11,106 bases of DNA, taken from the NCBI GenBank assembly GCA_021823555.1, contig JAKANW010000048.1, positions 1 to 11,106 on the forward strand. Reading direction: 5' to 3'. A program made the translations under genes and the position numbers. This document shows, piece by piece, positions 1,994 to 4,009 of this stretch. Within the stretch, counting starts at the first letter, position 1; each line of letters begins with the position of its first letter. The DNA comes from Chloroflexota bacterium (lineage in GTDB: Bacteria > Chloroflexota > Anaerolineae > Anaerolineales > Villigracilaceae). The notes under the pieces are model-generated. The model was given only the letters and a program-made list of their open reading frames with translations. It had not been told where the DNA came from and made no database searches.

Positions 1994-3886
1994 ATGGACA
2001 CCCAATCTCGTTACGAACAGCTCAAGCAGGAAGTCAGCTTCCATATTTACCGATACCACGTACTCGACGCACCGGTCATCAGCGACGCGGAATACGACAA
2101 ACTGTACAACGAACTCAAGCGCATCGAAGCGGACCATCCAGACTGGATCACGCCCGACTCGCCAACCCAACGGGCCGGAGCCGGTCCCGCCGACCGCTTC
2201 GAGAAGGTGCGTCACCCCGCCCCGATTTTGAGTCTTGCCAACGCCTTCGGCGCAGACGACGCCCGGGCCTGGTTCGAACGCGTCCGCAAGTTGGACGACC
2301 GCGTGGAGCGCACCAAATTCGTGGTCGAGCCAAAGATCGACGGGCTGTCGGTTGTCCTGCACTACCGCGGCGGAGTCTTCGTCCAAGGCGCCACGCGCGG
2401 CGACGGCGAAGTGGGCGAGGACATCACATCGAACCTGCGGACGGTGAAAGCGATCCCGCTGAAAATTCCAGTGCGTCAGGAATCTGCTCAAGTCCCAAAA
2501 CTGCTCGTTGTGCGCGGCGAAGCGTTCATCCCCATCAAAGAATTTGAGAAATTAAATAAGAAACTCGAAGAAGCGGGCGAGAAGACTTATCTCAACCCGC
2601 GCAACACCGCCGCGGGATCGTTGCGCCAGCTCGATCCGAAACTGACCGCTTCGCGTCCGATCACACTGCTGGTCTACCAGATCGTCTACTCCGAAGGCGG
2701 AGAAGTTCCAAACTCGCAATGGGAACTTCTGCAATATCTAAAATCCCTCGGTTTTCCGGTCACGGACGTGGCACGCCGCTTCGATGACATCGACTCGGCC
2801 ATCGCCTTCACCGAGACCTGGGACAAAAAACGCGACGAATTGTCCTACGAGGCCGACGGCATGGTCATCAAGATCGATGATCTGACGCTCGCCTCCGAGT
2901 TGGGCTTCGTGGGCAAAGACCCACGCGGCGCCATCGCCTTCAAATTCCCGGCGCGTGAAGTGACCACCAGCCTGCTCGGCATTGACGTGGAGGTGGGGCG
3001 CACGGGCGTGCTCACGCCCAAAGCCGTGCTGGAGGCGGTGGAGATCAACGGCGTGATTGTCAAAAACGCCACCCTGCATAACTTCGACTTCATCGCCGAA
3101 AAAGACATTCGCGTCGGCGACCGCGTGTTGGTCAAACGCGCCGGGGAGGTAATTCCTTACGTCATCGGCCCGGTGGTGGATGCGCGCACCGGCAAGGAGA
3201 AAAGATTCAAGCCGCCCACAGTCTGTCCCGCCTGCGGCCAGCCCGTGGAACATTTCGAGGGCGAAGTGGCATGGTACTGCGTCAACGCGGCTTGCCCGGC
3301 GCAGCTCGTCCGTAACGTGGAGCATTTCGTCTCCCGCGGCGCGATGGACATCGTGGGACTGGGCATCAAGATCGTCGAGCAATTGATCACGGCCGGGTTG
3401 GTCAAGGATGTGGCCGACCTGTTCACGTTGAAAAAAGAACAACTGCTGGAGTTGGAAGGCTTTGCTGATAAAAAGGCGGAGAACCTGCTCGGGTCGTTGG
3501 AGCAGGCCAAAGGTCGAGGCTTGAACCGTTTGATCACCGCGCTGGGAATCCACGGCGTGGGCGAGGTCATGGCCAATGACTTGTCGCGCGCCTATCCAAA
3601 TCTCGACGCGCTCGCCAGCGCCTCCGCTGAGGACCTGCAACAGATCGAGGGCGTCGGTCCGAACATCGCCGCGTCCATCGTGGATTGGTTCGGGCGCGAG
3701 GCCAACCAGAAGGTGCTGAAAAAGTTGAAAGCCGCGGGCGTGTGGCCGCGAGGTGAGGAAAGAGGAAAGAAGAAAGAAGGCGCGTTCAACGGATTGACCT
3801 TTGTGGTCACCGGCACGCTGCCCACCTGGTCGCGCGACGAAGCGAAGGAGTTCATTGAAGCCAACGGCGGCAAGGTCACAGATTAG
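1994..3886 (+). CDS. ligA: NAD+-dependent DNA ligase, BRCT domain cut by an in-frame TAG
   Basis: LigA seals nicks in duplex DNA with NAD+ during replication and repair. From the ATG at 1994 the reading frame gives 630 residues to a TAG at 3884-3886. The N-terminal Ia domain (KLYNELKRIEADHPDW) and adenylation domain contain the nucleophile Lys114 in EPKIDG. An OB-fold and a four-cysteine zinc finger follow (Cys411, 414, 429, 434), then the helix-hairpin-helix region (about 440-580, with GLGIKIVEQL, LEGF and IEGVGPNIA). After a lysine-rich linker (RGEERGKKKEG), the BRCT domain begins at about 592 (FNGLTFVVTGTL) and stops after GGKVTD. The missing part continues in frame to 4009, giving 671 residues in total, the usual LigA length. 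The catalytic core is complete and BRCT is not strictly required for ligation in known LigAs, so the short protein may work. A further ATG at 1976 is upstream of the -10 element and was not used. The TAG could be a real nonsense mutation, a read-through signal or a sequence error. Confidence 0.93.
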   Translation: MDTQSRYEQLKQEVSFHIYRYHVLDAPVISDAEYDKLYNELKRIEADHPDWITPDSPTQRAGAGPADRFEKVRHPAPILSLANAFGADDARAWFERVRKLDDRVERTKFVVEPKIDGLSVVLHYRGGVFVQGATRGDGEVGEDITSNLRTVKAIPLKIPVRQESAQVPKLLVVRGEAFIPIKEFEKLNKKLEEAGEKTYLNPRNTAAGSLRQLDPKLTASRPITLLVYQIVYSEGGEVPNSQWELLQYLKSLGFPVTDVARRFDDIDSAIAFTETWDKKRDELSYEADGMVIKIDDLTLASELGFVGKDPRGAIAFKFPAREVTTSLLGIDVEVGRTGVLTPKAVLEAVEINGVIVKNATLHNFDFIAEKDIRVGDRVLVKRAGEVIPYVIGPVVDARTGKEKRFKPPTVCPACGQPVEHFEGEVAWYCVNAACPAQLVRNVEHFVSRGAMDIVGLGIKIVEQLITAGLVKDVADLFTLKKEQLLELEGFADKKAENLLGSLEQAKGRGLNRLITALGIHGVGEVMANDLSRAYPNLDALASASAEDLQQIEGVGPNIAASIVDWFGREANQKVLKKLKAAGVWPRGEERGKKKEGAFNGLTFVVTGTLPTWSRDEAKEFIEANGGKVTD

Positions 3887-4009
3887 GTCAGCAAAAAGAC
3901 AAGCTATTTGGTGCTGGGTGAAAACCCTGGCTCGAAGTTGGAGAAGGCGCAGTCGCTGGGCGTGAAGATCATCGGCGAAGATGAATTGCGAAAGCTGGCT
4001 GGTTTATGA
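3887..4009 (+). pseudogene. ligA: Distal half of the LigA BRCT domain, beyond the TAG
   Basis: Directly after the TAG and in the same frame, 40 codons read [20 protein letters not shown] followed by [17 protein letters not shown] and a short tail, ending at TGA 4007-4009. This is the normal second half of a LigA BRCT domain (SxKTxYLVxGExPGSKLxKAxxLGVxIxxExE). There is no frameshift, no second stop and no visible decay. The residue lost at the TAG is Ser or Gly in most LigAs; TCG to TAG needs a single change. The following gene starts at 4006 and overlaps this TGA as ATGA, the spacing expected if full-length ligA were the ancestral, translationally coupled partner. It is not translated unless the TAG is read through or is an error. 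Confidence 0.8.

Follow-up and report, generated by a model that had tools for sequence, protein, structure and literature searches.

An in-frame TAG in the BRCT region of an Anaerolineales-type ligA gene looks like a recent mutation or a sequencing error

The in-frame TAG that interrupts ligA in the window (the whole 11,106-nucleotide stretch analyzed here) has the look of either an ordinary mutation of recent date or a sequencing error; no sign of programmed read-through was found. We put at roughly nine in ten the probability that it is a single-base nonsense change with no programmed role, in an otherwise normal Anaerolineales-type ligA. The ancestral codon would have been a serine codon one substitution away from TAG, since TCG, the serine codon that this ligA uses most (12 of 28), differs from TAG at one base. 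Two origins of the change are left, because the testable predictions of read-through failed and recoding is contradicted: a base or consensus error in the assembly, which we rate slightly short of an even chance, and a genuine nonsense allele of very recent origin, which we rate no differently.

The ligA gene lies on the forward strand at 1994-4009, with its start ATG at 1994, and when the TAG was read as X the frame gave 671 residues, the full length that had been proposed in the earlier note. As that note had described, the TAG (3884-3886, codon 631) follows GGKVTD in frame; it is the single in-frame TAG of the gene, and no second ligA was seen in the window, in line with the claim that this is the only one in view. 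The part up to and including the TAG (1994-3886) encodes 630 residues comprising the N-terminal, adenylation, OB, zinc-finger and HhH domains and half of a BRCT domain. PF01653, PF03120, PF03119 and PF12826 were all matched above their cut-offs, with the adenylation domain, OB fold, C4 zinc finger and HhH in order. Read past the TAG, the frame has the same order of Nlig-Ia, adenylation, OB, C4 zinc finger, HhH and BRCT as bacterial NAD+-dependent LigA (solved full-length relatives 2owo, 5tt5 and 1dgs), whereas, compared with full-length LigA, its BRCT domain is halved by the stop codon. The Pfam BRCT profile was matched over positions 2-76 when the TAG was read as X; the 111 residues before the TAG matched positions 2-37 (E 6.6e-7), the first half, and the 40 residues after it, taken alone, matched positions 39-76 of 78 (E 5e-6), the second half. 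A complete C-terminal BRCT domain is thus absent from the standard-code translation, where the profile match stops at position 37 of 78, ahead of the TAG. The truncated BRCT leaves the gene inside the LigA family, because this domain is removable from some LigA enzymes. The remaining 40 codons and the TGA stop (3887-4009, forward strand) are free of visible decay, and the terminal TGA (4007-4009) overlaps the ATG of the next gene (4006-4008), both as the earlier note had it. The TAG is more than a chance observation, since the tail is recognizable as BRCT and the column of the stop is serine in all of the aligned homologues (119 of 119).

These homologues were the best 120 of 8000 scored proteins, from which the window's own protein (P0002) was set aside to leave 119. 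At the nucleotide level, among the loci on genome contigs (the best 80 of 183 relatives), codon 631 was a sense codon in all 80, encoding serine in 79 and threonine in one (AGC 37, TCG 21, AGT 12, TCT 6, TCC 2, TCA 1, ACT 1). A stop at this codon was therefore found in 0 of the 119 homologues and 0 of the 80 loci, within the best 120 of 8000 and the best 80 of 183, respectively. The earlier note had held that sense codons in relatives would make the TAG an assembly or sequencing error. The sense codons are indeed there, but they do not prove an error; they confine the stop to the window among the sequences compared, because the nearest LigA proteins among the matches listed, both from JGI data, are only 86% (P0003) and 85% (P0004) identical. 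The closest homologue, at 86% the best listed, has 671 residues, and the next named LigA matches among those listed, at 84%, come from Anaerolineales and Anaerolineaceae MAGs, which suggests an uncultured bacterium of Anaerolineales type as the source of the window. A near sibling of the window organism has probably been sequenced already, since the window's 630-residue protein represents a 90% cluster of two sequences and an aminotransferase on an ENA contig (P0123) is 98% identical to that of the window.

Surveys of wider groups gave a similar picture. In the family of G001, LigA was matched in 141 of 152 genomes, and no internal stop was present in the best place of at least 140 of these 141, several of the places being partial and falling short of codon 631. 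In the order of G005, a survey that overlaps the G001-family genomes, LigA was matched in 269 of 301 sampled genomes, and among the matches listed one genome (G005 itself) had a stop, a single TAG. This lone in-frame TAG, in an Anaerolineaceae MAG (L052, G005:C59:18169-20157), lies in the zinc-finger region of ligA, at a position that corresponds roughly to residue 416 in the window's LigA, a glutamine, and its site differs from that of the window's stop. Single stops do occur, then, in public assemblies of the group, and they are not exceptional there, since 1 of the 80 loci (the best of 183) has a lone TAG elsewhere in ligA.

The stretch behind the stop bears on the age of the TAG. All 39 of residues 632-670 occur in homologues (119 aligned, the best of 8000), and at 16 post-stop columns that are invariant across all sequences, the window included, none has changed (about 35 non-synonymous sites); this upholds the earlier note's description of the remaining 40 BRCT codons as undecayed in the same frame, as does the match to the second half of the BRCT profile. 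If the stretch has been neutral, the divergence since the stop arose is bounded near 0.085 substitutions per site (95%). The NG86 dS before the stop was at least 1.2, with a range of 1.2 to 3.0, in 12 rows (9 distinct places) of 85 alignments; after the stop dS was often saturated, and the differences there were mostly at third positions. Such post-stop comparisons span the time before the stop arose, so they exclude a long neutral period and do not show present selection on the tail. Judged from these alignments, the stop is very young, or absent from the living cell altogether, because the column is highly conserved and the tail undecayed. An undecayed tail is predicted alike by error, recent mutation and read-through.

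We also looked at how noisy the window's sequence is. It departs from 2 of the 292 columns that are invariant in all others, one of them being the TAG, while such departures number at most 3 in any of the 119 homologues, with a median of 0. The window has 9 residues that are unique to it, counting the TAG; the median for such residues is 1, with values from 0 to 27, and P0003 has 6 and P0004 11. These values fit a sparsely sampled branch and give no clear sign of a noisy contig; a single error would still be compatible with them.

Several considerations bear on the choice between an assembly error and a real allele. The location of the TAG in the partly dispensable BRCT tilts modestly toward a real allele, and an error is favored by the fact that essential genes rarely carry nonsense alleles. 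Against a pure error, the BRCT domain makes up about 78 of the 671 residues, so a random error would land there about 1 time in 8 or 9, and the contig has no other visible damage, as far as genes with a Pfam match allow this to be judged. As it stands, the TAG is of little significance, for any large set of contigs can be expected to contain single nonsense codons, whether through error or through a recent mutation. If the stop were true and fixed, it would provide a natural test of whether a cell survives with a LigA that has no complete BRCT.

Should the stop be real, the gene would yield a ligase of 630 residues in which the catalytic core is complete, the zinc finger and HhH are present and the BRCT is unfinished, and ribosomes would halt 120 bases before the overlapping start of the next gene. 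By analogy with known ligases, such a product could plausibly be a weaker yet working enzyme. Passages of a review (PMC10386641) state that Escherichia coli LigA without its BRCT joins nicks almost three times less effectively, that BRCT removal caused a significant reduction in a second E. coli study, and that the domain is needed by the ligases of M. tuberculosis and mimivirus. An excerpt of another paper (PMC10244674) describes the T. filiformis ligase as reportedly independent of BRCT and the Thermus sp. AK16D ligase as losing much activity on its removal. A harmless real loss is thus disfavored, as far as these passages go, because BRCT removal costs activity in the Thermus sp. AK16D, M. 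tuberculosis, mimivirus and, in the second study, E. coli ligases. LigN cut down to domain 1a, adenylation and OB domains was, according to part of a further report (PMC1684257), adenylated with no ligation; in contrast to that truncated LigN, the window's 630-residue product retains the zinc finger and HhH. Among the titles and abstract openings listed on LigA BRCT loss or nonsense alleles, none reported a natural nonsense allele in a LigA BRCT.

The three options raised by the earlier note were a very recent nonsense mutation, a base error, and programmed or suppressor-tRNA read-through. The first two fit the data, but the third found no positive support. It holds that a suppressor or near-cognate tRNA reads through the TAG, by program or by leakage, so that the ligase is made both as a 630-residue and as a 671-residue form, and we consider it very unlikely. 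The conserved 40 codons downstream are as it predicts, but recency accounts for them equally well, and neither the 119 homologues (best 120 of 8000) nor the 80 loci (best 80 of 183) have a stop at this codon. The RNA was not unusually stable either: two 100-base stretches, after and around the stop, folded no more stably than shuffled sequences (z -0.49 and 0.15, respectively), lending no support to a downstream stimulator, an element that read-through does not always need. No tRNA gene lies within the window, and no Rfam family reached its gathering score there. Pyrrolysyl-tRNA synthetase (PylS) gave weak matches in 101 of 152 related genomes, these being relatives inferred from LigA and not the window's own genome, and none of the 152 passed the cut-off. 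The weak matches are meaningless, because a control set also gave matches in 13 of 14 genomes, of which one passed; the G005 genome had no match to PylS. Among viral contigs, 33 stretches matched a pattern but none was a relative of the protein, and the 30-base sequence surrounding the stop had no exact match there. That the amber codon is fixed and suppressed part of the time by a tRNA, leaving the cell with one ligase form that has a working BRCT and one that lacks it, seems to us a shade more improbable still.

No more credible is a selected shortening, in which the lineage would permanently do without BRCT and the tail would be a relic. Some LigA enzymes can partly do without BRCT, according to the passages cited above, and crystallized ligase chains such as 4glx and 1v9p end before BRCT and match only to about residue 586. 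Such BRCT-less chains (e.g. 4glx, 586 residues) keep the upstream domains, as the window's product does, whereas they end before BRCT and the window's product ends in the middle of it. We take chains such as 4glx to be laboratory constructs. The undecayed tail speaks against this reading, and the one BRCT-less candidate noticed among the relatives (G350) is truncated by the end of its contig, for which reason we rejected it as a natural BRCT-less LigA.

That TAG has been reassigned to an amino acid genome-wide can practically be dismissed: beyond the in-frame TAG itself and the second lone TAG in the ligA of the distant relative L052, nothing speaks for it, the L052 TAG is at a different site and a different residue type, ligA has only one TAG, and the SulP and coxII genes of the window both terminate in TAG, as the earlier note had pointed out in calling wholesale recoding unlikely, so we rejected it. 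One passage from a code screen of more than 250,000 genomes (PMC8629427) names Chloroflexi only for contamination by UGA-recoding contigs.

The gene following ligA (4006-4428, forward strand), whose ATG overlaps the ligA TGA, belongs to the F420H(2)-dependent quinone reductase family (PF04075). Among the ligA loci compared, many of which are short, nothing matched it at 1e-8, so its overlap with ligA was not seen elsewhere. Upstream of ligA lies a gene for a ParA/MinD-type ATPase (1173-1928, forward strand), matched by Pfam above the cut-off; it has matches in 19 ligA loci and stands just upstream of ligA in three of them (L015, L022 and L026). The window genes above Pfam cut-offs are those for a sigma factor, the ParA-type ATPase, ligA, the F420H2-dependent quinone reductase family member, the SulP transporter, an aminotransferase, a cytochrome c and the start of cytochrome oxidase subunit I. 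The COX2 match of coxII fell just under the cut-off (20 vs 22 bits), and the frame at 1-426 had no Pfam match, its anti-sigma label coming from position alone. A 353-residue open frame on the minus strand (4447-5508) matched no Pfam family at 1e-3 and nothing in the compared ligA loci at 1e-8; on inspection its sequence resembles that of a putative DegT-type aminotransferase. The SulP and aminotransferase genes, adjacent in the window (5899-8961), are also found downstream of ligA in one locus (L019, 12966-15966), where they are 87% and 89% identical.
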